Assembly (NCBI RefSeq): GCF_037975245.1
Contig: NC_092583.1
Location: 15,979,264-16,043,263, forward strand
Reading direction: 5' to 3'
From: Apostichopus japonicus
Lineage: Eukaryota > Echinodermata > Holothuroidea > Aspidochirotida > Stichopodidae
Length of the DNA: 64,000 bases
The position numbers and the translations under genes are program-made. The stretch's first letter is position 1; each line of letters starts with the position of its first letter. The notes under the pieces were generated by a model that saw only the letters and a list, made by a program, of their open reading frames with translations, was not told the DNA's origin and ran no database searches. Shown here one piece after another: positions 3,501-61,639 of this stretch.

Positions 3501-4767
3501 TATATATGTATGTGTAGTATAAACGTGTAAAGAAGTATTATGTATGGAAAAAGCCATTAAACTGAGCGAATGAAAAACGAAAGAAAACTTACAAGTGACA
3601 AACATATTGCGATGAAAAGAGTCAACCGGCCTGCAGTGGACATTTTCTTCTTCTTTTTGATGATAGGCCGAAAAAATCGGTAAAATTATTAACCGCCTGG
3701 CCGGCAGGCAATTCCAAAGTTACAATCCTCGAAGACTTTTCCTTGTTCCAAACGTTCGTGTTTGCACTCGCTTCTGTAGAAATTATTTGTGGACGATATA
3801 TTCTAAATGACAGGAGCAGAAACGCAATCTTTGCGACAAAGTTGATCTCATGAAATAAAAGGCTTGCTATTTCCACTAGGACGTCGAAAAATGAGAGAAA
3901 AGTTTTTCGATTGAAGTCTTCACTTTATACTAGTGGTGACGAACTGAACAGTGGTTAAAACAGCCTTGTGTTAATTTAAGCAGAGGTCATGACGTTAGCT
4001 ATACACCTATCGAGTTTTACCGTTCAGGCTATTTACAAAGGAACTTTACTAAGTATTACATGCATATAGCAATGGGTGAGGCCACTTGCACCGCTTGAAT
4101 GGACACCACTTTTTTTTTTTTTTTTACAGACATAACTTTTTGAGAATAATAAGGTCGCCACAAAGCTTTTGAAATTCTTACCACCTATAAAGTATCTCAT
4201 CTGCACTTATTTAAGGTTTGTGAAGCGTAACGCTAGCATTCATTTCAAAGCAATATTCTGTTGAAGTAGCATATGAGTCACAGTGTATATAGCTGTTTAT
4301 TTAGCTTATAAGTGCATTGGTAAAACTACCTTAATTATTTGACTCTATGTATGACTGATCAGGTTTCATGCATGGTTAGCATAACTTGGCACACCATTGT
4401 CCCCGGGTTGAAGTCACTATAATATACACCCCTTCATTTTCCCCTTTTTGGGGGGGGGGGTTAATAAATTTTTACAAAAGTGTTCATAAAAGTTCTGGTC
4501 CTTTAAATTATTCCGCAGTTATTGGTGAGTGCGTTTTAAATAAATCATTCAGATCATGGTTACCTTTCAAATAATCAAACTCAAGCGAGCAGCAGCTTAC
4601 GTATGATATAGGCTTAACATTTATGCCAATCGTTAACTGTTACGATACGTCTTGTGGTGGAATACCGCATATCCTGTAGAGGAAATATAACCAACGGGCA
4701 GGGCTGGATTAAGTGCAACTGATGCCATATCTATAAGCATAGCCCAACAATGGTACCACCTCCATGG
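3501..4767. other. Gene-free stretch
   Basis: A minus-strand open frame at 3622-3876 has a hydrophobic stretch near its N-terminus, but it lacks an ATG in frame and a good splice donor, so it is not called. Poly(T) lies near 4110 and a G-run near 4450. No repeat family is recognised. Confidence 0.3.
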
Positions 4768-4797
4768 CCCCTCCATATATATATATATATATATATC

Positions 4798-4892
<95 letters not shown>
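4768..4892. repeat. (AT)n microsatellite
   Basis: About 125 bp of alternating AT with one short interruption (TATCTAAATA near 4795). Similar AT tracts sit at 5173-5203 and 7205-7298, at the outer ends of the inverted Penelope-like copies. Confidence 0.9.
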
Positions 4893-5170: not shown

Positions 5171-5209
<39 letters not shown>

Positions 5210-5478
5210 AGAGAAAACCAGAGAAATAAGATATGACTCATAATTGACAAATAAGGAGTAAGTTTTACAAAATATATTGGAATTTTCGGTCCCCCTGGGA
5301 CCTTCGTCAGCAATACTTGGCAGTCGAATGAGAAGTACAAAATGTGACACAATGAAAGTATGACGCTAGATAAGAGTAAGTTGCAATGATGGAATTAAAA
5401 CCAAATAAACCATGACTATACAGGAAGCGGATTAAGGAGCAAAGAACGGATTACATATGCTTGTAGAACTGGTAGTTG

Positions 5479-6128
5479 TTAAGGGGTCCCAAGTCCGGTG
5501 AGGCCGGTGATGTGAGACTTAATACGAAAGATCCAATCGATTTCTTTACGTTTACGTTCAGTAGTTGATTTGAAGTTCGAGGCAATTAAAATACATTTTA
5601 GGTTTTTTAGAGAATGACCATGAAGATTGAAATGTTCGGACACTGGGAATCCTGCAAAATTATCACGAATAGATTTTTTGTGATTATTAAAACGTAAGCG
5701 GAATCGGGAGCCTGTTTCACCTACATAATTGCCCTCTTTGCAAAGTACACAATAGAAAATGTAAATAACATTAATAGAATCACAAGAGAGGGAAGGGGGT
5801 CTAAGACTAAAGTCAACATTGGGAATCTTGACCACGGTGCCTGGGGTAATATGGGGGCATATTTGGCATCTAGGTTTACCGCAAGGAAAATTGCCTGCGG
5901 AGGTGGAAACTGAGCGGGGGAGTCTGGAGGAAGTGAGAAGAAATTTAAGGTTGGGGGGTTGACGAAATGCTAGCATGGGGGGTACCTTAAACGATTCTCC
6001 TACAGACTGATCGTCTTGAAATACAGCAAATTCCTGTTTGATGGAGCGAATGAAAGATTTGATGAGGGGGTTGTAACTGGTAACGAACGGAATGCGTGTG
6101 TTGGGACTTTTAGACTTGTATTTTAATA
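5479..6128 (-). pseudogene. Penelope-like GIY-YIG endonuclease fragment, frame-broken C-terminus
   Basis: The minus-strand frame encodes the same polypeptide as the right copy: a Cys-rich linker (CGKPRCQIC), the GIY-YIG core reading VIYIFYCVLC then YVGETGSRFRLRF, and a downstream conserved ERKRKEIDW segment. Near the end the text differs from the partner copy by a small replacement with net loss of 2 bp (around 5495-5505). This shifts the frame and ends the protein early as GLTGLGTP. Everything before that point is identical in protein sequence to the other arm. No reverse transcriptase is present. Confidence 0.75.
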
Positions 6129-6135
6129 CCCATGT

Positions 6136-6927
6136 GATTTTAAACACCAGGTATCCATATTAACTGGTTATTTCTTGAACGTCGGATACCCCCTTCACTT
6201 AATTAGACAGGGTATTTCCAGGGCCGACAAGTTGAGCCGTGAGGACTTATTAAAATACAAGTCTAAAAGTCCCAACACACGCATTCCGTTCGTTACCAGT
6301 TACAACCCCCTCATCAAATCTTTCATTCGCTCCATCAAACAGGAATTTGCTGTATTTCAAGACGATCAGTCTGTAGGAGAATCGTTTAAGGTACCCCCCA
6401 TGCTAGCATTTCGTCAACCCCCCAACCTTAAATTTCTTCTCACTTCCTCCAGACTCCCCCGCTCAGTTTCCACCTCCGCAGGCAATTTTCCTTGCGGTAA
6501 ACCTAGATGCCAAATATGCCCCCATATTACCCCAGGCACCGTGGTCAAGATTCCCAATGTTGACTTTAGTCTTAGACCCCCTTCCCTCTCTTGTGATTCT
6601 ATTAATGTTATTTACATTTTCTATTGTGTACTTTGCAAAGAGGGCAATTATGTAGGTGAAACAGGCTCCCGATTCCGCTTACGTTTTAATAATCACAAAA
6701 AATCTATTCGTGATAATTTTGCAGGATTCCCAGTGTCCGAACATTTCAATCTTCATGGTCATTCTCTAAAAAACCTAAAATGTATTTTAATTGCCTCGAA
6801 CTTCAAATCAACTACTGAACGTAAACGTAAAGAAATCGATTGGATCTTTCGTATTAAGTCTCACATCACCGGCCTCAACAAAGACTTGGGACCCCTTAAC
6901 AACTACCAGTTCTACAAGCATATGTAA
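6136..6927 (+). pseudogene. Penelope-like element C-terminal fragment (GIY-YIG endonuclease)
   Basis: The open frame runs from inside the spacer (about 6136) to a stop at 6927. It begins with the region that follows the reverse transcriptase in Penelope-like proteins (SILTGYFLNVGYP, then LIRQGISRADKLSREDLL). Next come a Cys-containing linker (CGKPRCQIC), the GIY-YIG nuclease signature (IYIFYCVLC, then YVGET, with the catalytic-type Arg in SRFRLRF) and the conserved SEHFN and ERKRKEIDW segments. In intact elements this nuclease nicks target DNA to prime reverse transcription. Here the reverse transcriptase is missing, so the copy is 5'-truncated. An ATG start near the open end is lacking, as expected for an internal fragment. 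Confidence 0.8.
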
Positions 6928-7204
6928 TCCGTTCTTTGCTCCTTAATCCGCTTCCTGTATAGTCATGGTTTATTTGGTTTTAATTCCATCATTGCAACTT
7001 ACTCTTATCTAGCGTCATACTTTCATTGTGTCACATTTTGTACTTCTCATTCGACTGCCAAGTATTGCTGACGAAGGTCCCAGGGGGACCGAAAATTCCA
7101 ATATATTTTGTAAAACTTACTCCTTATTTGTCAATTATGAGTCATATCTTATTTCTCTGGTTTTCTCTAATAATATTTTCTTTTGGAGTAAACGTGGATT
7201 TTCG

Positions 7205-17700: not shown

Positions 17701-20700
17701 AAACTTACTGATTCTTACCATGTTTTTCAGTTCTTAATGTCTACCGGCAGGGAATTACCAGTGTCTTATTATTTTTACTGGCAAATGGACAAATCCACTA
17801 ACATTTAGCTAGTAAATAGCCCAAATTGTAAGACCTGATAATAAAGGTTAACAGCTGGTTTATAATGTATTCACAGATCTCTGCTTCATCTTGAAATCAA
17901 ACTGTAGCCTTTAAAGCAACAAATCCTAGAGCAGAGTTTATAAGGCAGTTAACATGTGTAATATTTTTAAGGTTAACAAATTGTATTTCTATATATGATA
18001 ATGATGAACAAGGTTGGCATCAGTCTCACAAAAACTGCTGTGCATCTGTATAGCAATTTGTCCATTCTGTATAGCATTTTACAATTCAATACCAATAAAA
18101 GTTGTCAATATGTCACCAGTTTGACCTATAAGTTGGTAAAGGCATTTTCTTTCTCGTGCAGTTTTGGAATTTTACCTCTGGATACCCCCAGCCCTGGGGA
18201 TGCAGGCTCACCTACTTTTATCAGCCCCCAAGCTACTGATGCTCAAATACCAGAACCAAAGGCTCCAAGAAGGGTACATTCATAGGGTTCTATGATTAGA
18301 TTTTTTGTTTACTTTCTAATGTTATTTAAAAACTCTAAGTTGGGATGTACTTAAACATGTGTGTTTCTTTGTTTTGGTTTTTCAAAATAAAAATAAAAGT
18401 GTATGCATGGTATAAGCCACAAGAAAATGACTGGTGTTTGATGAATGTTTAGAGAGGGAGAAGGGAATTTCTGAAAATTGTCACCAGGTCACCTGAACTG
18501 TAAAATCTGTAGTTAATTACTTTGATATTTCATGAATATTTATAATGATGTTAATTGATTATTAGAATATTCATAGTGCAATTGTCACCAGGTCACTAGA
18601 ACTGTAAAATCTGTAGTTAATTTCTTGATATTTCATGAATATTTATTCTGATGTTAATTGGTTATTAGAATAGTCATAATGTAATTGGTCAACAACAAAT
18701 TCACTACATGAATATTCATGAGTGGAAAATTTCTACTCTCTGTATATATTGTATATGCTTGGTGGCACAACAGGAGCACATGTTTCTAGGTTGTCCTACT
18801 GTTGGAAGGATTCTGCTATAGACTGCCAAGGAGTGCTGATACCTATCATTTTACTGCCTTTTGGCTAAGATCATGTGTAGTATCTGTTCCCTTTCGAGGG
18901 GAATGGTGATGCACACCCGACAATGATCACACAGTCACAGTCCCGATGCAAGGGAACTGGGGTTGAGAGCGGATCAGTCGTTCGGTAGTTTGGTTTCCGT
19001 GCCTAGGTTCTTTCCTGGGCGACTTTTCCTTAAAAAAAGTATCATTTTACTGCACTGTTGTTGCAAGGGTTAGGGTTAGTAGCAAATATGTAATAGTTCT
19101 CCTCAGAAATAATGAGTAATTTTCTACTATACAAAAATCATATTGGTTTTACAACCTTTGTCTAGTCTTATTTAGTTACTTGCTAGTGGGCCTACATGTA
19201 GGAATGTTAACTGGACTTAGTTCTAAGGCCTATCTTACTTTGCTGTAAGACAGCACGTTTGTAGTTCACTTTCTGGCAAAGACCTGAAGTTCCTAAATGC
19301 GAATTTTTATTTTATTGAATAAAACAAAGTAGCTGCATGGCCTATGTCATGAAGAAAGAAGAATTAGCATGCATGTATTATTTGACCTTTGTACCAGTTT
19401 TTACAGACAGCTTGGTAGCTTGAATACTTCAATCAATCCATGCTTTAAAAAGCTGAATCTGAAATTGGTGGATTGAAATGGTCCTCTTGATGTTCCATCA
19501 TTGTTCAGAAGTATGCAATTCTGTTGATCTATTCAGCATTATTTTATGTCATTTCTTTGGTGCTTGGTGTGCATTCACTATAAACCTATTGAAAATTCAT
19601 GTTGATGTATCTTCGCATTCAACAGGCTGTGAGGAGAGGTTTACCAGCTGGAAAACCTCCAAAGTTACCAGTCTTCAGCCAATCAGGCAACAATAATAGC
19701 AACACTAAAGAATCACATTCTACGGCACTTTTACCAACCTCCGTCCCATCGTGAGTATCCTCTTCAAACTGTCAATGTTCACCAGATATTTCGAGTATTT
19801 GTGGATTAATCCTTAAGATATTGAATGCCCAGGAGACAGGGATGGTTGTATTTAGCTTGAAGTTTACACATCACTGTTTAGGCTCTTAACAATAAAAACA
19901 CATTGTGAGCTCAACTGTAACTATGATGTTAACACTAAAAAAACACATTCTCCGGAACTTTTACCAACCTCCGTCCCATCGTAAGGTTCCTCTTCAAACT
20001 GTCAAACCAGATATTCGAGTATTTGTGGATTAATCCTTAAGACAATGAATGCACAGGAGATAGGGATGGTTGTATTTAGCTTGAAGTTTACACATCAGTG
20101 TATCTAGGCTCTTAACAATAAAAACACATTGTGAGCTCAACTATAACTATGATAGTAACACTAAGGAACAGATTTCTTAGGCACTATTTTCAACCTCCGT
20201 CCCATCGTGAGTATCCTCTTCAAACTGTCCACACCAGATATTTCAATATGTGTGGATTCATCTTTAAAGATAATGAAATGTCCAGAAGAGAGTGAGGGTC
20301 CCTAGATGTACATGTTAAAGTAACACACCACCGCTTTGGATATTCTGTTATTCTTCTTTCTCTTATCTTCTTTGATGTTTTCTCTGTGATAAACAGTCCT
20401 GCACAGGTGCTCTTCACGTCGGCACACCACGGAGTCAGGCGAAGCTCTCGTCTTTTTAGTAATGCCAACTCTGTCAATGCCAGTTCAGTAAAGGTGAGTT
20501 TTTAATGCTTTTTGTATGCCTACATGAAAGCATGTTTGTCCAATTAGTACCTAAATAAGTTAACTCAAAACTGTTTAAAATAAAACACAAAATAAAATAA
20601 AACTATTAGCAAACTGCTTATCTACTAGAGAGCCTGTGTAATAGAATGTGTAAAAGTAAGTTGGCCTGACGTTTTGATCCTAGCAGGATCTTCTTCAGAG

Positions 20701-26700: not shown

Positions 26701-29700
26701 TCTTGAACATAAACGATATATATATATATATATTTATCACTTTGCAACTAAGCACTCTTGATTTTAAACTTATCAAAAAGAAAGGGGAATCCCCTCAAAG
26801 CCACAGCATCTGCCACTGGTGGGTAGGCTAGATGATGAAGGCTAAAAATGGGGATATTCAAGCAAAAACATGTTGAAATACCAGTGATCTAGTGTTTATT
26901 AACCGATCTGTAAAACATTATCAAGAAGACCAGTGTCCTTAAATGTCCTTTGAACTTTTGACTTAAAAAATATAAACGTTTGGAGGATGTCATGGGGTTT
27001 CTTTTCAAAATGTATACTAGCGCTGACCTAAGTGAAAAGAACAATGTTATTCTTGAGCTTTTGCCACAGACTATTGCAAGTAAATAATGTCAGCGAATCT
27101 ACAATAACAAGGAAGGCAATATAGTTTTTTTAAATTTAGAAATGCAGACAAGAAAAACATCAAGAATGAGGACTTGTTTTCATAGCTCCTAGTTGGTTGG
27201 AAAATTGCCATTGAAGCAAAAATTTGGTAAATATTTCTGCCATACAGTAATGTCATCCACTATAAAGCTCTAAAATTGTACTTACCCAAAGGCAATTAGC
27301 TGTTTGCACACTGCACCAAAATCTGAACACTTTAGAGACACTCTCTGTCTCGATGACAAAGGTCATAAACTACCAAACTTTGCCAGATGTGTTGTATGAC
27401 AACGTTAATAGCTATTGTGAACTGTGACATTTAATTACAACACCTGTCTAAACACATATTCAGCCCGGGAAATACCAGTTGACCCCGTATAACGACTTGG
27501 CATGAAAGGATGTCAATTTAAACTGTTCCGTTCAGGAAGTTCATCTTACTGATAAGATTGGTTGCCCTTTAAAGATCTGCTATGTATCTGACACATACAA
27601 AGAACAAAAGAAAACGATCTATGTTCTCTGTAATTTGAAATTTGTTGTGACCTAGAACGTTTAGATGGAGGTTGGTGAGACAGATTTTAAAAAAAATAAA
27701 AAATTGTTAGTTGTTTGCACCACAAATGCTTAACCCGTGCCAGCTGATGTTTATTATAAAGACAGGTTTATGTGTAGGCCTACCTCGTCCATTACCAACG
27801 GACGGAATACATGAAATTATGGATCATCATATCAGTTAGTTAGAGATAACTCACGTATCAAGATATTGAGATATTATAAGAAAGGCTTATCTGGAGCGAG
27901 CGGTTAGACATGTAACATAGAAACTCACCCAGTAGAGTTTGTGTTTCTAACTAGTAATTTGCATATTGAGCAGTAATTTGCATATTGAGCAGGTAAATAC
28001 ATTCTTAAATATGCTTGACAGGTATTTGTAGTCTGGTGAGAAATGTATATTTTGTATTGTCTTCCAAGGTGTGAGGGTGGGGGGTACCTTAGGGCTCGAA
28101 TTACACTTATATCATATATTAGCTTTTAATTAAGGTAAAACAGTGCACGTTTTTTAAAGGTTCTTTTTTTTTTTTTTTTTTATGATTATTATTTTTTTTT
28201 ATGTGTGTGAACTACATGAAGGCATTATTTGGTTGAAATAATATCAATATCGACTTAGCTTGAGACTTTAACATGTATGGATACTGTTAATGATAAATTA
28301 CTTCACAACCAACCCAGAAAGTGTCTTCGAAAATAATTTAAAATATGCACCTTGTTAACATTGACACTATGTCCTACATTGAAGTGTCATGAATATTTGG
28401 ATATTTGAGACCCTGTAATCCCTTCCCCCTATATCCATGGCCCCTCCACTGACCCACTCCCCCCCCCCCCCCGGCACTACTGATTGAATGAGGCAGAACA
28501 CAGAATATCACATCACTAACCGGAGCATACGTGTTTTTCTCATCCATGGGACTTAAATTTCAAAACATAACTTACAAATTGAAACTGTTGTGGATTTTGT
28601 TTTGTACTAAATGTGTGTAAAAGGTATTAAAAGTTTGGTCAGATGCAGTTCTTATCTTTTTTTCATTTTAAGTGTTTAGAGGATCAGACTTTTGTATCTC
28701 CAAGCATATGTGGCCTCTGATCACTCTCTTTCTAAGTTCAGTAAAATAATATTGTGTGGTGGGTGTACTCTTTGTCTTTCTCCTGCTTGGTCCATAGCCC
28801 CATGATTGTAGGCCCTCTAAATAATGTTTTTAGCACAAGATCACGTCTGGGACCACATTGGACTCTCTCTCTACTCATTACCCTGACACTCTAATGAACA
28901 GTCACCGTCAAACTGCCATTTTATTGTCCCAATAATTCATTTGTGTGAGTCTAGCTAAAGGAAGCCTCGGCTTACTTTGAGCACCAGCTTCAAAGAACAG
29001 TTGCGGCAATATTTAGTTGGGATGTTGAGGATTTCATTGGCTCAACTTTGGCTGCCCTACTGCTTAATCATCCAGAGATTATTATATTCACTTAAAGGAG
29101 AGTCCAAGGGAAAGACACACCGACTAGTTGCTCAAATTCTTCGTTCTTAGGTCGGTAGTAATCTCGCAACATTCTTTCAATTCTATCACTGATGACTGGG
29201 TGTGGGAAGGTTTCATCATCTGTAGTTATGCTTCGCATGGTGCGTGCCTTGACTTTCACACCCAGTCCATCGGCCGTGAACATTTCCCGAGTGTAAAGGG
29301 GATCAAGCCCCACAAACTGCTCCACAGATTGAAGGGTTCCCAAGAGGTTTCTCTTCATGTCACTGTTATCGATAATCAAAAATTGACTCCTGTCGAAATA
29401 CTTCAGCCATTCTTTAAAGTGTAAGGCATAGTCGCCTGTGTAGACAAAGGGACTACTGCTGTTGATGGCCGTTGACCCGTTTGTGGTCACCTCGGCAGTA
29501 AACCGCTCGGTCTCCAATTTTGCGCTCTGCCTCATCCGCCATTGCCGTTTGGTCCTCATGATCGCAGTGAAGCGGAAGTCTGATAACAGACGTTTCACAG
29601 GGTCCCGTACCAGCAAGATGAATTTGATGTTTCGGGGTAGCTCCCTCTTCATGTTTCTAGGAGCGGACTTGGTCACAAAGTATCTTGGAGTTTTCTCAAA

Positions 29701-32700
29701 TAGCAATTGATCCTTCCTTGGAATTGCCAGTCGGGACTCGTACCAGCTTACGTTGTGTTTATCGTACCTGTCGTAGTAATGCACCTCGTAGCCTGTCACA
29801 CACATCTGCGGATGAAACTCCAGGTAGAACTTCAGTGCATTTGTGCCACATTTTTTAGCGCCGATCAAGATTACATCCGGTAGCCTGCTCGCATAGCCTT
29901 CTCTCTTCATGACTTCCATAGAAATATCGACTGGGATCGCTCCTTCAAAGCTAGCATTGCGTTGCAGGTCCCGCAGCTGCCTGACGATGTTCTCTCGAGC
30001 GATCCGCTTCAGTCGCAGCTCTGTCCGTGCTCCTATCGACTTTCTTAGAAACAGTGCATCACTTTCATTCAAGAGATGATTCCTCTCGATATGTAAATTT
30101 AAACGACTAGCGGTCGTAGTAGAGGTCACAGGGGAGGTTTCTCTAACGAGGAGCAAATCGGGAGATGTTTTTAATCGTACTATCGTATGCTTTCTGTAGG
30201 AAAATAATAAAATATTGCATAATGCTAGTGAAGCAATCACAAGTAATTGAATACAGTTTTTCCTATGAACTGCCATTTCCTGACGAGGAGACGCGGCCAG
30301 TTCTATTTGCATCACAGGTTATCTCTGCGTATTGCACCACTTTAAGGCATCCAAGGTGCAAACAGATTCTGCTTCTTGAGGATAAATTATCTCCATAAAT
30401 GTTGAAAGCAGGACAAGTTGGTTCAAAACTTATCCAGTGAAAAAGCCAACTATCAGAGAGGATTGTACTGTTGCCTGTACCATGGCTATCACAAGTGTGT
30501 ACCATGTATGTACATCCTGTCTTGTGTCCAACGGAAGCATAGGCTTGTCATCCTTGCTTTGCAGGCTGACAATTTCCCTTGGGTGTGTGTTTACCTCAGT
30601 GGACTGGATCCTGTATGTATACTGTAATGTGGTCTGGTTCACATTATCTCCAGATGCATTACTTGGTAGATATGTGGTTCAGGGTACATACACACATACA
30701 TACATGACCCAAACTAGTCTTTATTATAGACCTAATGCTGAGGTCAACATAACTTCACCAGGATCTGTTGACATCATCCAGATTAAGCTCTCCGTTTTCC
30801 TGCATTAATTAAAAGATGAATAAAATGATTAACAAGTTATTCAAAAGTGATAATTAATCAACTGATCATTTAGTGTTTGTTGATTTTGCAATGTGATGAA
30901 GTTGCTTCCCATCAAATTATGTGAGCGGTTTCTAAGTTTGGTCAAAGGGAAGTCCTGGGAGGGTCTGAAAGTCTGGGAGATGCAAGTCTGCAAGTCTGGG
31001 TGAAGCAAGTCTGCAAGTCTGGGTGATGAAAGTCTGGGTGATGCAAGTCTGCAAGTCTGGGTGATGCAAGTCTGCAAGTCTGGGTGATGCAAGTCTACAG
31101 GTCTGGGTGATACAAGTATGCAAGTCTGGGTGATGAAAGTCTACAAGTCTGGGTGATGCAAGTATGCAAGTCTGGGTGATGCAAGTCTGGGTGATGCAAG
31201 TCTGGGTGATGCAAGTTTGCAAGTCTGGGTGATGCAAGTCTGGGTGATACAAGTCTGGGTGGTGAAATTCTACAAGTCTGGGTGATGAAAGTCTACAAGT
31301 CCGGGTGATGAAAGTCTACAAGTCCGGGTGATGCAAGTCTACAAGTCTGGGTGATGCAAGTCTGGGTGATACAAGTATGCAAGTCTGGGTGATGAAAGTC
31401 TACAAGTCTGGGTGATTCAAGTCTGCAAGTCTGGGTGATGCAAGTCTGGGTGATGGAAGTCTACAGGTCTGGGTGATGCAAGTCTACAAGTCTGGGTGAT
31501 GCAAGTCTGGGTGATGCAAGTCTGCAAGTCTGGGTGATACAAGTCTGGGTGGTGAAATTCTACAAGTCTGGGTGATGAAAGTCTACAAGTCCGGGTGATG
31601 CAAGTTTACAAGTCTGGGTGGTGAAATTCTGCAAGTCTGGGTGATGAAAGTCTACAAGTCTGGGTGAAGCAAGTCTGCAAGTCTGGGTGATGCAAGTCTG
31701 CAAGTCTGGGTGGTGAAATTCTGCAAGTCTGGGTGAAGCAAGTCTACAAGTCTGGGTGATGAAAGTATGCAAGTCTGGGTGAAAGTGCTCTCTTTGCAAG
31801 AAGACATCACAATTGATCAGCTATTTCATTATCAAAAATTCCAAATTAGATTGCAATTGAGAATTTAATCAAGCCACTCCCTCACAGAGCTTCTTTTTTT
31901 TCAAAAAGACAAAAAAACCTAAGGTTAATGAGGATGTTATCCAAAGATTCTGTTGTCTTTTTTGAGCAACAATTTGTGGCCCAATACTTTTTCACATTAC
32001 TGTTTCTAATAATGAATAAAAACAGCAAATTAGAAATCATCAAAAATGTTTGACTTTTTGCTTCAGTTTTAAGAAATAATCTCAACTGAGAAAAATTACC
32101 GAACTACAACATTGTTTGGGGATTTTAGTATCAAGTAGCAGACTCAAAACTTAATCCAAATGAACTCAAAGAGCTGCCTTAAATGATGTCTTCTTCAGAT
32201 GGCACACATTGATTGTGTCAAATGTTGAAATAAATATATGCCACACGCTACCCAGGGTCAGGACCACATGTATAGGGCATCATTTTATTGCCAAACGATT
32301 GAGCTGTTATAGTTGAAATGTCCTTGAACATGAGATAAGTCTTTTATCTGCTGGGTTGTATTATTCACTAAACAAATTTTGAGCTCTATGACTGCAGAAT
32401 GCATTGGCACCTGAAATAATAAAGAAACTCAGGGGTAAAAAACATTCCATATGTAACACATCTTCAAGGAAGACTCAACAACAATGATTATAATAAGCAA
32501 AAGAAGCATTTGAGTGAAAACATTTTCGGATGGACAATTTCCACAGTTAGTTTGGAAGGAATTTTTACACTTCAAGTTTATAAGGTTAACCAGAGCAAAA
32601 GTTCACTGTAAATAAAAACAACATTAATCCACAGAATTTTGTGTTTGTTCAAAGTTCCCTGAAAATGTAGGAATTATGACTATTTAATAATGGGATAACA

Positions 32701-35700: not shown

Positions 35701-38700
35701 ACAGTACTTTACTGTAGCATTATGGATGAGGATATTACTCTTGTGGGTAAATATACAGGGATATGGCTGATTGTTTTTATGTACATTATGTAAATATAAA
35801 TGTGCTCAGAGAGAGAGAATTGTTGTACTAGGAGTGTGACATGTGGTGGCAACTTATCATTGCATGTTGGATGGACTGTAGTGGTATGGTGGTGGGAGAA
35901 ACAGCTTGAGATTAAATAGGTTAAGATGTGTACAGTATGTGTAGTTGTTTCTTCTGCATTGGTTTGTAAACACTGGTGGATAAATGACACAGTTGGTCTG
36001 CACAGGAGATACAACTTAGTGAGTAAATGAACCTTATTACTTTGATGGACTAATGTCTTTTGAGGTCAACCGAGTTCAGTCTGAAATTCATTGTAAGTAA
36101 GAGTGATAAATCTCAAAGCCAAACTTGGAAGAACTTCATATGTAGATAGTACAGCACCATAGTGTATGGAGAGGTCAAAGGTTATATGGAGACATCCAGA
36201 AGTCAAAGTGTGAAGACCCTCTATGTATGATACCGCCAAAGGTAAACTCTTGATTAAACTTGCTTAGTTTGGAGGTTATAGGTCATTTGAAGTCAGTAGT
36301 TCAGACAGCTTGTATTAAAACACAATAAAAACCCTGATCACTTGAAGGTTACAACGGTTAAAACTTGATAAAAAATATTGATTATTTGATCAATATTGTC
36401 AACAAATCTTAGGACACTTTAAGAAAGAAAATGAAGATTAACAAAGACTTAGACATTTGTATGTACAATGTAGTTTATTGCCCCAGACAGTTCTGTCAAT
36501 GGTATTACTTAATATGTTAAAAAAAAAACCAAAAAGAATTGGCTACTTTAACTACTGTAAAGTATTTGAAATGATATGCATACCACAATATAGTTCATGA
36601 ACTTGTCGGTTTTTACTTCAAATAATAGAGTTAAAGACAACAATTCTTACAAAATAGGAATTAAGTATCAATTTGCCTTAAAAAAAAATTAAAAAATGAT
36701 CAAATTCAACCCAGAAAACTGCTTTAAAAACAGTTGAATGACTTTATAGAGCAGTGTAAAATGGAATGATTTCAACTTGTCACCATGTTAACAGTGTACT
36801 TTGAACAGCTTGTCAAACCCGTTAGAGTTAAGTACATACCAGTGTACATTAGTTACGCGGAGTTATTAAAATTGCAGCGTTTTATTAATATTTTTTGATG
36901 ATCAAATACAACTGTAATGGAAGACCAGACTGTACAGATAATTAAATTAAGATACTTATTTACTTAAATGATATTATCTTAATATTTTAATAAGGAAAAA
37001 GTAGTTTTGAAATAGTTGAAGTGATCTTGTCATTAATAACAGTGCATTGTACTATTTTGAAAAAAAAGGCAGAAAAAAAGAAAAAGTAATGGGTCAGGAG
37101 AAGCTCTTTGCAGGACCATTGCATCTCATAAAATTAAAGTATAACACAATTGGAGAAAGTTATAACATTTGATAACAACATCATACCATAATTATTTGTG
37201 ATAGGAATTTCTCGGTCTGAGGTAAATATCTGCTGTCACAATATTATCAATGCCCATGAAAACCTGTTATCTAGGTCACAAGTAGTACGTTCCCTTTTGT
37301 TGTCCCTGTTGAGGCCTCAAGGAGTGCCCCCTTCAGCCATGTCCAATCAACAGTCAGTGCTCGTTGTCATCATCACATTGGTTCATATCTGGTAGTTATA
37401 CGAAAGTTCACACACAAGTTGCAATATCTGAATGCAGACCTAGTAGTACTGTAAACATTATATACATTATATGCTATTATATACAATAGTGTATACAAAT
37501 TAGTCTGTAATTATTGAAGAAGAGATCTTTTGAAACATATTTTGCATAAGTTTTAAGTCAAACTTTGCACTAGTTTTAACCACCTTGACTAATTGTGTTT
37601 TCTAATCATGTAGGTTATTGTTTGTCTGACCAAACCACACATGTCGACCTATTCAACTGGCCAGTGCTTCTGTATGCACTTTCATGCGGCGTGTTTGCTT
37701 GTATGTGATCGCTTTCGTGCGATGGCGTTATTTTGATTCAGAGATCTGTCTACAGTACAGATCACACACATTAGGAATGACTTGAAAATGCCTAGATCTT
37801 CACAAAATTCTGGAGAGCCTTATTACTAAATGATACCACAGTGGTGACTGCATGTCCTCTTAAAATTGCCTCCATCAACACTGTGAATAGTCCTTCCGAA
37901 AAAAAAACAAGATAAATGATTCCATGCACATATCATTCATTGACTGGCAGGTCATTAAAGTATTAAATATAGTGTCGAATAGCTTCCAACCATATTCGAA
38001 CTGGTAAGAGGAGTATAGGAACCCTGAACACAAAATCTGTAACTTAAAAATTCCCCTCAGGCACATCAAAAAGACAATGAGTTAATTTACTGTACTTTGT
38101 GCAACACAGAATGTAGTAAGTTGATTAGCCGAATGGCTATTACGGCCTGTAGATATATCAGACCTCTTTATTTGAAAATCTTGATCACTCAAACGACTCA
38201 CTACTTCATTCATTGAGCTTCACTTAATTGCACTGCCTTCTTTTTATGGCCATTGCCTACAAATTAAAAAGGCCTACCTATCTTTAAAGGGTAGACCAAG
38301 GGAAAGACCTTCCTGCAAGGCGCTCAAATTCTAAATTTTTAGGTCGATAGTAATCTCTGAGCACTTTATTGACCTCTTTGCTCACAGCAGGATAAGGTAA
38401 CTTGGGGTCTTTGGTATTCTTAGCTGTTATATTATTCTTGCCTACTTTAACACTCATCCCATCGGCAGCAAACACATCTCTCGTGTATAAGTGATCGATG
38501 CCGAGAAACCTCTCGACGGAGTGAAGCGTCTCCACCACATTAGCTTTCATCTCGCTATTTTCGATGATCAAAAATTGACCGGGCTTGAAATACTTCAACC
38601 ATTCCTTAAAGTGCAAGGCATAGTCGCTGGTGTAGACGAATGGATGGCTGCTGTTGATGGCCGACTCCGCCGTCATTATTTCAGAAATCAGCAGCTTGGC

Positions 38701-41700
38701 CTGGGATTCTGCACTCTGTTTACGTCGCCACGTTTTCTTCGTTTCCAAAATCGTCGTGAATCGAAAGTCCGATATTAGGCGCTCTACGGGATCCCGAACA
38801 CTGAGGATGAATTTAATGTTACTGGCGAGTTCTCTCTTTATATCGCTAGGCGCCGACTTGGTCACAAAATATTTAGGAGTCTTCTCAAGTACCAGTTGGC
38901 CCTTTTTGGGAATACGCAGACGGGACTTGTACCATTGGACATCGTATTGGTCGTGCCTGTCGTAGTAGTGAACCTCATTGCCAGTCACGCACAGCTGGGG
39001 ATGAAATTCTAGGTAGAATTTAAGAGCATTTGTGCCAGTTTTCTTTGCTCCGATCATGATCACGTCAGGCAGTCTACTCTTTATCCCTTCCTCATGTAGG
39101 ATCTTCTTCACTACAGTTGCTGGAAGGGTTCCATTCAACCCTCTGGTCGATTGAGCACGTCGCAGCCTCTTCAACAGTAATTGTTTTATCGGTGGTAGTA
39201 AACGGCTGTCGATGGTTTTGCCGACAGCATTCCTGACAAATTCGTTCTCCTGCGGAGTCAGTGGGTTGTACCACACATACTGCATATGCAGATGCTTTTT
39301 TGCCTTCGTCCTCCTTCTTGGTTGAGGATGATGGTTTGAGAGTATCACCTGAAATATCACCACTACAGCTATTGTCAATAAAATCAAACCAAACAGCGGT
39401 TTGCGCCATTGCCTTGTCATTTGGGCAAGATTCATGTCCAGATTGTGAGTTGTTCGTTTCTTTTCTCCGTTGTTAAACTGTCTCCTCTCTCTCTCTCTGT
39501 GAAAGATGCGCATCAACTGCAGGGTAAACCGTGCATCTAAACTGGCATCAACAATCTTTGCAATTATCCTGACATAATTCCCTCTTCATGATTGGTGCTG
39601 TTGTACTGTATTGGTCAGGTTGCTGATAGATACATACACACCCCAATCTGCTTATTCATTACCATACATGTATATATATTTAGCGGAATAATTCCTGTAC
39701 TAGAAAGGTGGTACAATTGACTCTGTAACACCAAAATTTTTGCAATCAATATTTTGACCAGTTTCCCTAGATGAGGAATAAGTTGACACGTCGTCATTGA
39801 TTCTACTGAGTGCTTTGTTTATGCACTACTAAAGGACAGGTTCTGTAAAGTGTTATAGGCAATGCAATATTTCTTTGTTCAATTGTAATGGTGTAAAAAA
39901 CACCTGTTTTGTGATTTGCCTGTAACTAGATTTTAAACCAAAATATGTGAAATATTACTCATAATAGTTGGCACATAATTTAAGTATCAGATCTTCCTTA
40001 GTTTTCCATATAGGGACTTGGAGGTATTTTTATGTAAGATCTTGACTAACGATGCAAGGAAAATATACTGTCCAAAAGTCCTCCTGTTTTCTGGGAAGGC
40101 AGCTACTGTTGTTGTGTAGGAGCCTGGCTGTGAACAGGGAGTTGTAACAGTTCCCTGGTGCGAGCCAAATGTAGCCTAGTTAGTAAGGTCATTTTCATAT
40201 ATGCCATATAATGGAATATTCAACTAGACATACAGTGATGTAAAGAAGCTGTTTTTTTATTTCCTGCAGTGCTTGTTTGCCTGACTGTTTCAAGGCTATG
40301 GGTTTAATGTCCTTGTTTTATGCACCGGTTTACGTAAAAACCACAATAACAATTAGGGACATGTACATACATTCACCACCAACACCACAGGTTCCAGATA
40401 CAGTATGGCTTGGGGTGATGAAACCGTTAGTACTAGTGTTGGAACCGCTTTAACCACTGCTTTACCCTACTGAAAATAACAGTCTATTTATGTACACCAC
40501 TGACACGTATACTATACTATACCAATGCAATTCAGAAGTTTGAATAGTTTCAAGTCGATGAACCAAGAGTCCATTACTTTTTGAAATGTCTGATTTGCTC
40601 ATTTTGCATGTTATTCCAAAGGTTTCTTCCGATTATTTGAAATAAAATGAGTCTAAGAGGCTTTAATCGTCTGCTATTTTCACCCTTCCAGGAGGCCTTG
40701 CAAGAACTGAATGAATTGAAACAGATTACTCCTAATGAATCCATGATTTACTTCCTGATGGGCAAAGTAAGTATATGTATGTCCTAAACCATGGGACTCC
40801 CTGTGGGTAGCCATGGTTACAACAAGATGTCACAATGACCCTCCTTATGGCTAGGATGACCTCTAGTGAAAATTTAATAACAGTGCAAATATTTTGAAAT
40901 TGATTCTGTCAAATTTCATTTGTTGAAGGTTAGTCTGTGGTTGCCCCCAAAAAGTACCTCTCTTTAAGTTGCTGTGAAATTACCACACACAAGAAAAAGA
41001 GAGAAAAGAAAAACTGTTTGGCTTAAAAGTCTCACAGAGGGTTGATTTGGAGGGGAAGGTGTCTCTTCCCATGCAAATGCCCTCATGGTGGCAATAAGGG
41101 AGGTCAAAGGTGACTCTTGTATATTTGGGAGTTTTCTTAACTATGCACAACTGAGACAATAGGGTCAGTTTCTGAGTTGGAGCTTTTAAGTATTCAATCA
41201 GCCATTATGTAAATGGTTCTATCCAACTTTTCTCAAATAATTTTGTTCGATACCCCTTTACTTAAGTAGCAAGCATTTTGAAGACTGTATAACTGGCTGA
41301 AATCTAGGCACACGCTAGAACCATGCCGAGAAGAGAATCTGTATAACTGCATTGGGATTATCTGTGGATCAAAGAATATTTTACTTGGTATTGAAAATCA
41401 ACTTTTTGACTGTTACAAATCAAATCTCAGTTTGTGTAATAATTATGTTGTTTTAATATTTTCAGGTTTACAATAAGCTAGGCCAAACTCATTTGGCCCT
41501 TGCCAGTTTCTCATGGGCCCATGACTTGGACCCCAAAGGATCTATGAGTCCAGTGAAGGAAGCCCTGGATAAACACTACCTCCCAGACGATGACAATAGC
41601 TCCCAAGACCTCGATGAGGAGACTTATGAAGGCAAGTCGGAAGGCAAAAACTTAGGACAGGGGCACTTGCAGGAAGCCTAAGGATTGATTTGATCATGAA

Positions 41701-47100: not shown

Positions 47101-50100
47101 TTGTAAACAGCATGAGCTCATTACAGATAAACAAAATTAAAGAAAATGACGAAACTTGATTCTTATTTTATACTCTCCGAAGAGACTATCCACAAACTGA
47201 TCAATATCACTAAGAACTGAACGCTTTAGAATGAACTCAAGAATTCTGCTGGATTTCACTTCACGAAAAATTTGACTTTTGTAATTAATAAAAACTCCAT
47301 CTCACCTGCGTTTGGCAGTTGGTCAATATTTTGAAGGCACAGGTAGCACCAAACGATATCAAGGCACAAGATGGCAAAATTGTCCACTGCTTGTAGAATA
47401 TCTGATCGGCAGTGGCTGAATTTGAAGAAATCATCAAGTTCAGTTAATGTGAGATATCATCTGTTGAAAGTTCTTTACAAAAGAATCAATATTAGTTTGC
47501 TTCCCCCTCTCATTTTACTCCCCCCAGACAATTTCCCCAAAAATTAATTGTTATCCAGAAGAGTATATTTAGGTAAAGTCAAGTTTTGCTGTCAAACTGT
47601 TTTATTAACAATTTTTACAGCAAGTTTTATTTTGAAGATATGGAAATTTGGTGATATTTTATTGCAAGTATTTTAAGAGCAGATGGAGTGAAATTATCAA
47701 CACAATTTCAACTGAATAGTCAGTCATATGTTCCTCTTTGTAATATAAACATCAGTTTGTGATTATAAAAAATAACATTTTTTACAGAACTCTTAAAGAA
47801 AGGCTTGAATCGATGTGCATATGACGCTTGATAGCCAGGCAGACATTTCAAACATAATAACACACTGCAATTTCACCGGTCTGTCTTTACACTTTACTTT
47901 CTTAATTAAATTTGCTTTGCTGTCATCACAAAACTACCGACCCCCTCGTATTCCTACATGTAATGAATGATTCATTGCTTGCAAGAACTTTATCCATAGT
48001 TAAAACAGATTTTGAGAGAGGATTTTATCAGCAGTGTGGAATATCAATCTTTTTCTTGCTGGGCTCACATCACAATGCATGTTACCAGATATCCTTGGTC
48101 AAAACCTGTAGTCAAGATGGCTACTGGCAACATTAGCCTCTGAACTTACTTAAAAGCAGTCTCCGATTCCTGTAAGAACAGGACTGCTGTGGAGTCAAGA
48201 TGGCTACCGGCAACATTATCCTCTGAACTTACTTAAAAGCAGTCTCCAATTCCAGTAAGAATAGGACTGCTATGGAGTCAAGATGGCTACTGGCAACATG
48301 AGCCTCTGAACTTACTTAAAAGCAGTCTCCGATTCCAGTAAGAACAGGACTGCTGTGGAGTCAAGATGGCTACTGGCAACATTAGCCTCTGAACTTACTT
48401 AAAAGCAGTCTCCGATTCCAGTAAGAATAGGACTGCTGTGGAGTCAAGATGGCTACTGGCAACATGAGCCTCTGAACTTACTTAAAAGCAGTCTCCGATT
48501 CCAGTAAGAATAGGACTGCTGTGGAGTCAAGATGGCTACCGGCAACATTAGCCTCTGAACTTACTTAAAAGCAGTCTCTGATTCCAGTAAGAATAGGACT
48601 GCTGTGGAGTCAAGATGGCTACTGGCAACATGAGCCTCTGAACTTACTTAAAAGCAGTCTCTGATTCCAGTAAGAACAGGACTGCTGTGGAGTCAAGATG
48701 GCTACTGGCAACATGAGCCTCTGAACTTACTTAAAAGCAGTCTCTGATTCCAGTAAGAACAGGACTGCTGTGGAGTAATCCTTCTTCTTCAACGACGCAC
48801 GTCCCTTCTCATTCAGTGTGAGGGCGACAGACAGAGCTGCCCTCTCTTCTGCTGGTAGGGCCAGAGTTTTGCCATTCTGATCTGTTATTTGTAGGAAAAA
48901 GTTATCTTCATTCAGTCCTGTTCCTAGAAAAAAAAGGAAACAGAATATTAATATAAAAACAAACCAAAAATATGAAATTCTTGCATTAGAATATTTAAAT
49001 GAGTTTTGTTTTTTAATCCAGACTTGCAATGAAGATTACTACAGTAGCTTTTAAACTGTGAGTAAAGCTATTTCTATGTACATGAATGCCATCAGATTAA
49101 CATTGGTTAAGCATGGGCTTAACTGCTGGTTAGCATGGCCTTAACCACTGGTTAGCATGGGCTTAACCACTGGTTAGCATGGGCTTAACCACTGGTTAGC
49201 ATGGGCTTAACCACTGGTTAGCATGGACTTAACCGCTGGTTAGCATGGGCTTAACCGCTGGTTAGCATGAACTTAACCGCTGGTTGCCATGAGCTTAACC
49301 GCTGGTTAACATGGGCTTAACCGCTGGTTAACATGAGCTTAACCTGTTGTTAACATGGGGTATCAAAGAAAATGTGAGATGGCTTCTAAAGCAAGAAATG
49401 TATTTGGAGCTGATATTTAAATTCACGATTAAGGACATTACCTCTGTTTCATACGTACCATACTTTTTGTTGGACAAGAGCTGGGCTGCTTCTTTTGTTC
49501 TTTGAATAGCTGTCAAAGAATCCTCCTTCTGAAGAGCTTCCTTTTCAGTCTCAGATAGAAGAACAACCATCACCTGCCAGAGGGAACAAGACTTCAGTAT
49601 AAGTTTCATGTTGCAGATTTATCCCCGTTCTTCAAATCCTAGTACAGCAGCAGCACTGCTACAATCTGCTCTGTAGTTTGTTGTGGCTGACCCTTCCAAA
49701 CTCCTGCCTCCAGAGTGAGCTGACCCTTCCAAACTCCTGCCTCCAAAGTAAGCTAATTATGACGCTAACACTACCGGACTGAACTTCACCTCAAAGGAGG
49801 AAACTGATGGGGCCAATTCTCTTAAATGTATGCATTATAAAATAGGCATAATTTAGTCACTTGAATTCCGTTTCAGGCTGGAAAATTAAATACCTTGTGA
49901 TGTCTTACAGCTAAATTTCCTACGTCTAAATCTGGTTTATGTTCCTGCAGGTACTATATTGTATGTGAATTGCATGTGCTGAAAAAGTTAGGTCCTATAA
50001 CCTGATTGATTATGCAAATTACGGACTAACTAATATTCAAATGTCCCATCTGTGAGTTTGGAATGTTTGTTTAGCGCATCTTTCTTGCAAAGTAAACTTT

Positions 50101-61033: not shown

Positions 61034-61528
61034 TTACCATGGCTTGGGGGTGAGACACACCCACACCCCCTCTAACGACGTCCCTGCGCGGTGAATATGG
61101 AACACGATCACATGGTTCAGCTTCTGTTGAGTCATGGTGCTCCGTAGCCTTGTCTTCAAACGCCTCAAAGCACTAAAAGATCTCTCGGCTTTCGTCGAAC
61201 TGGCGGAGGAGACGAGGAGCAACCGCAAGAGAGCTTCGACTTCACCAAACATAGCCCGTACCACTGGATTCATCAACTTGAATATTTGTCTATAACCTTC
61301 AACCGACGACGAATGGAACTGGCCTCGAAATAAAGGCAGACTAAGCTTAAGATTGTTGGAGAGCTCAGGGTACCAACTCACGAGATCTGGGTGGAATTCT
61401 CCATTCAGCAACATTGAGTGATATTCGAGGATATGAATCCTAAGATGTGTAAGCCGTAACCAAATAGAGCCACGACATTTCTTTTTTTCCAAATGTGTGG
61501 GGGGGACATTTGATATTGTTTCCCCCAT
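61034..61528 (-). pseudogene. hAT transposase C-terminal fragment (dimerisation domain)
   Basis: A 164-residue minus-strand frame. Its second half holds the hAT family C-terminal dimerisation signature: LPVSSAS-like text (here LLLVSSASSTKAERSFSAL) followed by LRRLKTRLRSTMTQQKLN. Intact transposases have several hundred residues with an N-terminal BED or TTF zinc finger and a catalytic DDE region. All of that is missing here, since the right TIR begins only about 55 bp beyond. After HIHR (about 61094) the frame runs into the end of another repeat (CAGGGACGTC on the minus strand at 61086), so the last residues are not native. A non-functional remnant. Confidence 0.8.
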
Positions 61529-61639
61529 CCATCGAAATGTGGGGGGGACGTGTCCCCCCGTCCCCCCCTGGATTGACGCCCATGGTTCTGTAAATAAAAC
61601 GAGTTCTTAAAGAGTAAAAATTCTAAAACATTATCAAAA

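Follow-up and report, generated by a model that had tools for sequence, protein, structure and literature searches.

The locus described here lies in a stretch of 64,000 nucleotides of the sea cucumber Apostichopus japonicus (contig C23, positions 15979264-16043263), referred to below as the window. It carries a short insertion on the + strand, at 18858-19039, framed by the perfect 14-bp repeat TATCATTTTACTGC, whose two copies at 18844-18857 and 19040-19053 have no third counterpart anywhere in the window on either strand. A preliminary description of this DNA had proposed a retroposon that begins with the 5′ part of U2 snRNA, ends in A-rich sequence and is flanked by an exact 14-bp target-site duplication, and each of these parts was borne out. 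The 5′ copy of the duplication (18844-18857) is followed by a 5′-truncated head (18858-18889) in which 32 of 32 bases are identical to nt 14-45 of the genome's own U2 snRNA, including ATCATGTG and the branch-point recognition sequence GTAGTA (GUAGUA in RNA). As the final GC of the 5′ repeat also corresponds to U2 nt 12-13, the 5′ boundary of this copy is ambiguous by 2 nt. Next comes a junction filler that varies between subtypes, CCTTTCGAG (18890-18898), placed between U2 nt 45 and the body proper and able to form a hairpin with its neighbors (approximately 18887-18903). The body common to the subtypes runs from GGGAATGG to CGACTTTTCCTT (18899-19031), with a stem-loop near its 3′ end (approximately 19002-19019), and is followed by seven A's and one G (19032-19039); in the family described below, G(T)(A) usually comes after the A-run. 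The 3′ copy of the duplication (19040-19053) begins with TATC, like U2 nt 37-40, which fits the U2-like target preference of that family.

A sensitive Rfam scan of 18800-19100 identified the head as U2 (RF00004, 37.7 bits, E = 2.5e-6), below the gathering score of 46; U2 is not listed for this copy at the default cut-off because the head is too short to reach that score. In the same interval, the body itself gave nothing in Rfam except one chance-level match to a CRISPR repeat (E = 8.4). A tRNA search found none, and the 64-kb window contains no second copy of the body. The element is predicted to fold into a structured RNA (z = -3.3).

Elsewhere in the window, an inverted repeat of 929 bp with 99.6% identity between its arms (5202-6128 and 6248-7176) carries the same ORF text in both arms (5479-6159, - strand, and 6127-6927, + strand); its protein, which we take to resemble a GIY-YIG/Penelope-type endonuclease, has no Pfam match. 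Two sulfotransferase genes (Pfam Sulfotransfer_1; 29092-30318 and 38284-39585, both - strand) with about 70% DNA identity over 804 bp have apparently arisen by tandem duplication. Two clean tandem arrays lie near each other, with 8 copies of an 83-bp unit (48110-48776) and 11.6 copies of a 22-bp unit (49104-49359), and a fragment at 61034-61606 (- strand) gives a weak match, just under the Pfam cut-off, to a hAT transposase dimerization domain.

The preliminary description had left two readings of the insertion side by side: if its body occurred in many copies it would belong to a SINE family, and if it were single it would be a chimeric retropseudogene made by template switching. A search of the genome (671.6 Mb in 35 contigs) with the window copy returned 46 matches from the 40 candidates scored among 2226 first-look candidates, and a 41-base piece of the body occurs at 1588 genomic places with at most 3 mismatches, compared with none for a reversed-pattern control. 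The one-off chimera, for which the single copy in the window might have spoken, is refuted by these 1588 matches and can be set aside. The insertion at 18858-19039 is a 5′-shortened member of a dispersed SINE-like family that is found on many contigs, is non-coding and has a full length of about 195 bp.

Copies were analyzed at 97 loci. Some of these (L001-L008 and L022-L053) are the best matches to the window copy and others (L086-L142) were picked for an exact 41-mer on contigs C1-C4, so that the sample is not random. Ninety-three loci hold one single match; the four with more than one (L041, L046, L048, L050) were excluded. At one of the latter (L041/L021, C19:15491967-15492744), four SINE copies stand in tandem at a spacing of 199 bp, more regular than nested insertion would give. 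Identity of the 93 copies to the query averages 95.7% (range, 87.6 to 99.2), and 37 of the best-match copies differ from their own consensus by a mean of 2.0%. Old, diverged relatives of the SINE are seen in the 5′ flank of the L044 copy and in the 3′ flank of the L139 copy; the relative beside the L044 copy carries ATCAAGTG within its head, perhaps a trace of an earlier U2 sequence.

An A-run of at least 4 was present in 86 of the 93 single copies and missing from the other 7. By the score of our script, 57 of these 86 copies have a target-site duplication, in keeping with the retroposon proposed for the window copy; 29 have none, a point against the explanation given below. After removal of 2 copies with repeated flanks and 2 with pure TA repeats, 53 copies were kept for analysis, with duplications of 7 to 24 bp (median, 12).

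The head of the family extends further than the window copy suggests, its 32 nt being due to 5′ shortening: the full head corresponds to U2 nt 1-45 and equals the genome's own U2 at 45 of 45 positions, so that the resemblance to U2 noted beforehand holds for the species' own gene. Among the 93 copies, 17 start exactly at U2 nt 1, 49 at nt 1-4 and 76 at nt 1-15, and 5 start beyond the head. In an ungapped count over the 49 copies that start at nt 1-4, the head has no mismatch to U2 in 19, one in 14 and at least 11 in 3. The 18 bases preceding the 17 full-length copies agree with the U2 spacer at 9 of 18 positions at most, and their mean agreement with one another is 0.28; in L004, which is among these copies, they include a second, partial U2 head. 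Given that 17 of the 93 copies begin at U2 nt 1 and that their flanks are not U2 spacer, the RNA from which they derive must have begun where U2 RNA begins.

The genome's own U2 genes form a tandem array with a 645-bp unit on contig C16, with four more genes on C15. A pattern in which an A-tail is joined to U2 nt 36 onward was matched at 90 places with at most 3 mismatches. Sixty of them are uninterrupted U2 sites (56 on C16 and 4 on C15), 22 are A-tail junctions on C16 (at most 1 mismatch), 7 are C16 sites with a second LINE tail, AAAGAAATCTG, and 1 is on C20. On C16, 29 of the 85 U2 sites that match the pattern are thus interrupted, a count that sites departing further from the pattern would escape. 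All 22 A-tail junctions on C16 were read: 6 are copies of the SINE (L062, L063, L067, L071, L072, L073) and 16 are LINE-type tails, LINE reading frames being seen in the longer stretches L054-L057 and the remaining tails being classed by likeness.

In the array, the SINE is arranged as unchanged U2 upstream sequence, U2 nt 1-45, body, A-run and U2 resuming at nt 36 or 38. L067, L071 and L072 each show U2 upstream sequence, U2 nt 1-45 (with one change in L067), a 5-base filler, the body from GGGAATGG, the A-run, GTATCTGTTC and the remaining U2. The sequence upstream is U2 spacer at 400 of 400 bases in L067 (through L018) and at 66 of 66 visible bases in both L071 and L072. L063 contains two SINEs in a row within one U2 gene. 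It had been considered as an insertion into a SINE head, which was rejected: the second SINE occupies the U2 target that remained immediately downstream of the first. In L073, U2 nt 1-53 is followed by a 5′-truncated body that returns to U2 at the same point, and L062 has a still shorter body, behind a LINE insertion, with the same return point. These two are target-primed insertions at U2, with duplications reaching U2 nt 53.

The truncated copies bear on the possibility that the SINEs of the array are products of gene conversion or ectopic recombination, in which dispersed copies would have used their 45-nt head to enter a U2 locus that has no role in their life cycle. The perfect 45-nt homology would permit such events, and the bodies in the array hardly differ: between L071 and L072 there are 2 differences in 188 positions, both within the 5-base filler, and between L071 and the second body of L063 there are 2 in 143, one of which falls in the filler. 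However, the headless bodies of L073 and L062, with U2 duplications to nt 53, could not be made through a head, and the 3′ junctions of the SINEs rejoin U2 at the same point as LINE insertions. This origin is largely refuted, and we consider it highly improbable.

A complete element that enters U2 is expected to leave a double head. Allowing at most 3 mismatches, double heads gave one match, L004. A complete SINE with its own head is also found in the diverged U2 copy on C20, whose 3′ part shares 91.6% identity with a C15 gene and 89.8% with the C16 unit; this double head is more mutated than that of L004. Double heads are rare, which counts against the explanation given below, and are not a major product.

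The array is also occupied by LINEs. The ORF2s of L054 and L056, located beside U2 fragments, match Pfam Exo_endo_phos and RVT_1, i.e., an APE endonuclease and a reverse transcriptase, and the ORF1 of the array LINEs has zinc knuckles. The L056 LINE is of autonomous type and about 5 kb long, and the best solved relative of its ORF2 is LINE-1 ORF2 (E = 4.7e-69). At their 3′ ends these LINEs join U2 as AAAGAAA|TCTG and GAAAGAAA(A)GTA|TCTG. The truncated LINE of L057 has U2 nt 1-45 at its 5′ junction, as in the SINE. In L054, at 4680-4800 within the U2 array of C16, the ORF1 of the LINE has its first ATG at U2 nt 29-31 (ATCATG). Human U2 reads ATCAAG at this place, so that the altered U2 of the sea cucumber provides an ATG in the leader, and this LINE also seems to use the U2 leader.

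In U2 genes, the SINE family shares its insertion site with these LINEs, and for that reason its head is most simply explained as captured target rather than as a template-switch product. A LINE helper would share this site and similar 5′ junctions with the SINE; the two differ in their 3′ tails, and the assignment of the helper is the weakest step of the explanation given below. Comparison of the SINE body with four 10-kb array stretches and 13 junction tails gave one chance-level match of 15 bases (E = 0.68), and among the array LINE tails read none has the 3′ stem-loop of the SINE, A-richness and GTA being all that is shared. Enzymes of the L1 group accept A-tails generally, so that the missing common tail is not fatal to a LINE helper.

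Two kinds of U2-specific LINE are described in the passages of PMC4640811 that concern this target. Keno is an APE-type LINE that interrupts U2 just before nt 39 (PMC4640811); with an APE domain, a reverse transcriptase and U2 resuming near nt 39, the array LINEs are Keno-like by that description, rather than by sequence comparison. Keno differs from the SINE in being autonomous, and the 3′ ends of the array LINEs differ from that of the SINE. Utopia elements carry a restriction-like endonuclease, and those of their families with weak specificity also have copies at U2-like sites in other places (PMC4640811). They resemble the present case in the U2 site and in the stray copies at U2-like sites and, to the extent that those passages characterize them, differ from it in the endonuclease, which is of APE type in the array ORF2s scanned.

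The 3′ ends of dispersed copies retain traces of U2. Most of these copies end in AAAAAGT before target sites that resemble U2 nt 38-40. In the 86 copies with an A-run, the run is followed by G in 80, by GT in 72 and by GTA in 65. Among the 53 copies with a retained duplication, G follows the A-run in 50, as against 11 at the same position of the target-derived 5′ repeat, and GT in 44 as against 7; the G and mostly the T therefore come from the RNA and not from the target site. They equal U2 nt 36-37, although they might instead be a constant feature of the SINE itself, with no read-through into U2. At the target positions corresponding to U2 nt 38-40, A is found in 44 of 53, T in 29 and C in 21, each above flank background (binomial p < 0.001 each; 18 positions tested). 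The preference does not span the whole U2 site: in the same 53 copies, nt 30-36 and the majority of later positions show background frequencies, and the G of U2 nt 42 is present in 4 of 53 targets, more rarely than in the background. Such a pattern is what priming on an RNA that continues into U2, or a relaxed endonuclease of U2 type, would leave.

Heads of older SINE copies have also been hit. Two clear insertions into the U2 head of an older copy were found, at L044 (into the old relative, with the duplication GTATTATGTTCC) and at L085, as against a chance expectation of about 0.002 head hits per hundred insertions (1588 heads × 10 bases/671.6 Mb). L118 and L121 on C3, seemingly one duplicated locus, contain a SINE, an A-run with GTATCTGTTCC and a second body that has no U2 head upstream; this candidate was dropped and is not counted as an insertion into a head, and it may copy a two-unit RNA from a locus like L063.

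No B box was found in the element at 1 mismatch, one near-consensus A-box-like site lies in the head, and TTTT runs occur in the head (at nt 15) and in the body. No internal Pol III promoter of the kind that marks a SINE is present, and the element is SIDE-like by the strict Pol III definition and SINE-like by structure and dispersal. U2 genes are transcribed by Pol II, and the absence of a B box together with the TTTT run in the head would speak for the U2 (Pol II) promoter. With unchanged U2 upstream sequence immediately in front of the array copies, co-transcription with U2 is probably the simplest source of an RNA that starts at U2 nt 1.

The same features can be set against the view that the head was added once, by template switching to U2 snRNA during reverse transcription of a headless SINE, and that the chimera spread from a Pol III or fortuitous promoter of its own, the insertions into U2 genes being a side effect of the LINE used. 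The degenerate A box would suit such a promoter, but the body lacks a B box and the TTTT run of the head could stop Pol III. Sections of PMC13174262 document snRNA chimeras formed via LINE-1 template switching or RNA ligation. Against this route, the fusion point at U2 nt 45 (49/50 in other subtypes) is the 5′ junction of insertions into U2 genes, LINEs included. The array copies have unchanged U2 sequence upstream, and one of them, L071, is matched at 185 of 185 bases by two dispersed copies, L133 on C4 and the first of those in L083 on C3.

The fillers give a less simple picture. They differ by subtype (CCTTC, CCTTA, CCCTC, CCCTA, TTTTC, TTTTA), and TTTTC equals U2 continued to nt 50. A junction-variant pattern gave 203 exact genomic matches; among the 100 matches listed (C1-C15), 44 have CCTTC, 30 CCTTA, 14 TTTTC, 7 TTTTA and 5 others. 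The filler of the window copy, CCTTTCGAG, is the commonest form among fetched copies and is not among the four visible array fillers (CCTTA twice, CCCTC, CCCTA), a point in favor of template switching; a form of it is present in the diverged U2 copy on C20. Either the variants were captured separately or they arose by mutation from a single ancestral junction (U2 nt 1-50 joined to GGGAATGG), and the number of captures is uncertain. The clustering of differences at the junction favors its possible re-formation there. Taking both sides together, we regard a single template switch as an unlikely origin of the head.

The explanation that we prefer, and hold to be probable, is that a SINE-like non-autonomous retroposon family parasitizes the U2 snRNA genes, its head being captured target and borrowed promoter rather than the result of a chance template jump. 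The body enters U2 genes by target-primed reverse transcription, between about nt 37/38 and nt 45-53, as the junctions show. Placed behind unchanged upstream sequence and U2 nt 1-45, it would be transcribed from the U2 promoter as an RNA consisting of U2 nt 1-45, body, A-run and the start of the remaining U2. This RNA would be reverse-transcribed at new sites. At a U2 gene, its head would match the target and the promoter-bearing arrangement would be restored; such arrangements are present in the array, and the cycle is a plausible way of producing them. Mostly, re-insertion would take place off target and leave a promoterless, dispersed, U2-headed copy of the kind seen in the window. The enzyme would most likely come from an L1-type, APE-endonuclease, Keno-like LINE that occupies the same U2 site. 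It also seems reasonably likely that a promoterless SINE family cycles through U2 genes in this way, gaining there a Pol II promoter and a 45-nt head that allows seamless homing to U2 and sometimes to its own older copies, with the strays building up more than 1500 copies.

Such a family shares traits with two known systems. The crocodilian SINEU elements reportedly have heads derived from U1 or U2 snRNA genes. These snRNA-headed SINEs are cited in parts of PMC7245038, PMC4640811 and PMC13174262. The head of the sea cucumber family, U2 nt 1-45 of its own genome (45/45), is likewise snRNA-derived; the two, likened here by description only, differ in host group, crocodilians as against a sea cucumber, and in that the body is seen here inside U2 genes behind unchanged upstream sequence. 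The SIDEs of R2 and R1 in Drosophila are short non-autonomous elements that live in multicopy rRNA genes (PMC3414825). As set out in the relevant sections of that paper, they are internal-deletion derivatives of R2 and R1, depend on co-transcription, borrow the machinery of LINEs with the same target gene, and are cut from the co-transcript by a ribozyme (PMC3414825). The SINE of the sea cucumber is also inserted in a multicopy RNA gene, with which it may be co-transcribed. It departs from the SIDEs, as those sections present them, in that its body has no similarity to the array LINE stretches read and so does not look like an internal deletion of them, that it keeps a host-gene head, and that it has more than 1500 copies, the sampled ones lying almost all outside U2 genes. 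The family combines SINEU and SIDE traits: it is a dispersed SINE-like family headed by the 5′ part of its own insertion target.

SINEs with snRNA heads were thus already known, and the cycle through U2 genes is apparently the new part. No description of a SINE that cycles through U2 genes, or of an echinoderm U2 SINE, was found in a search of open-licence PMC papers, and one may exist in Repbase or in closed papers. The family is also of importance for annotation: the published sea cucumber assembly lists no more than 159,644 bp of SINEs (PMC10344927), less than this single family at about 180 bp × 1588. RNA heads on LINE-made insertions are usually put down to template switching or to the joining of RNAs, according to parts of PMC13174262. 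Here, the head, its fusion point, the source genes and the offspring are all found in one assembly and point to a simpler route, in which an element jumps into an RNA gene, borrows its promoter and carries its 5′ end away. If this is true, an snRNA-headed SINE has been caught along with the source loci that make its head, and Pol II would probably be the polymerase that makes this SINE-like element. Between them, this SINE and the LINEs load an animal's U2 genes, with interruptions at 29 of the 85 pattern-matching sites on C16.
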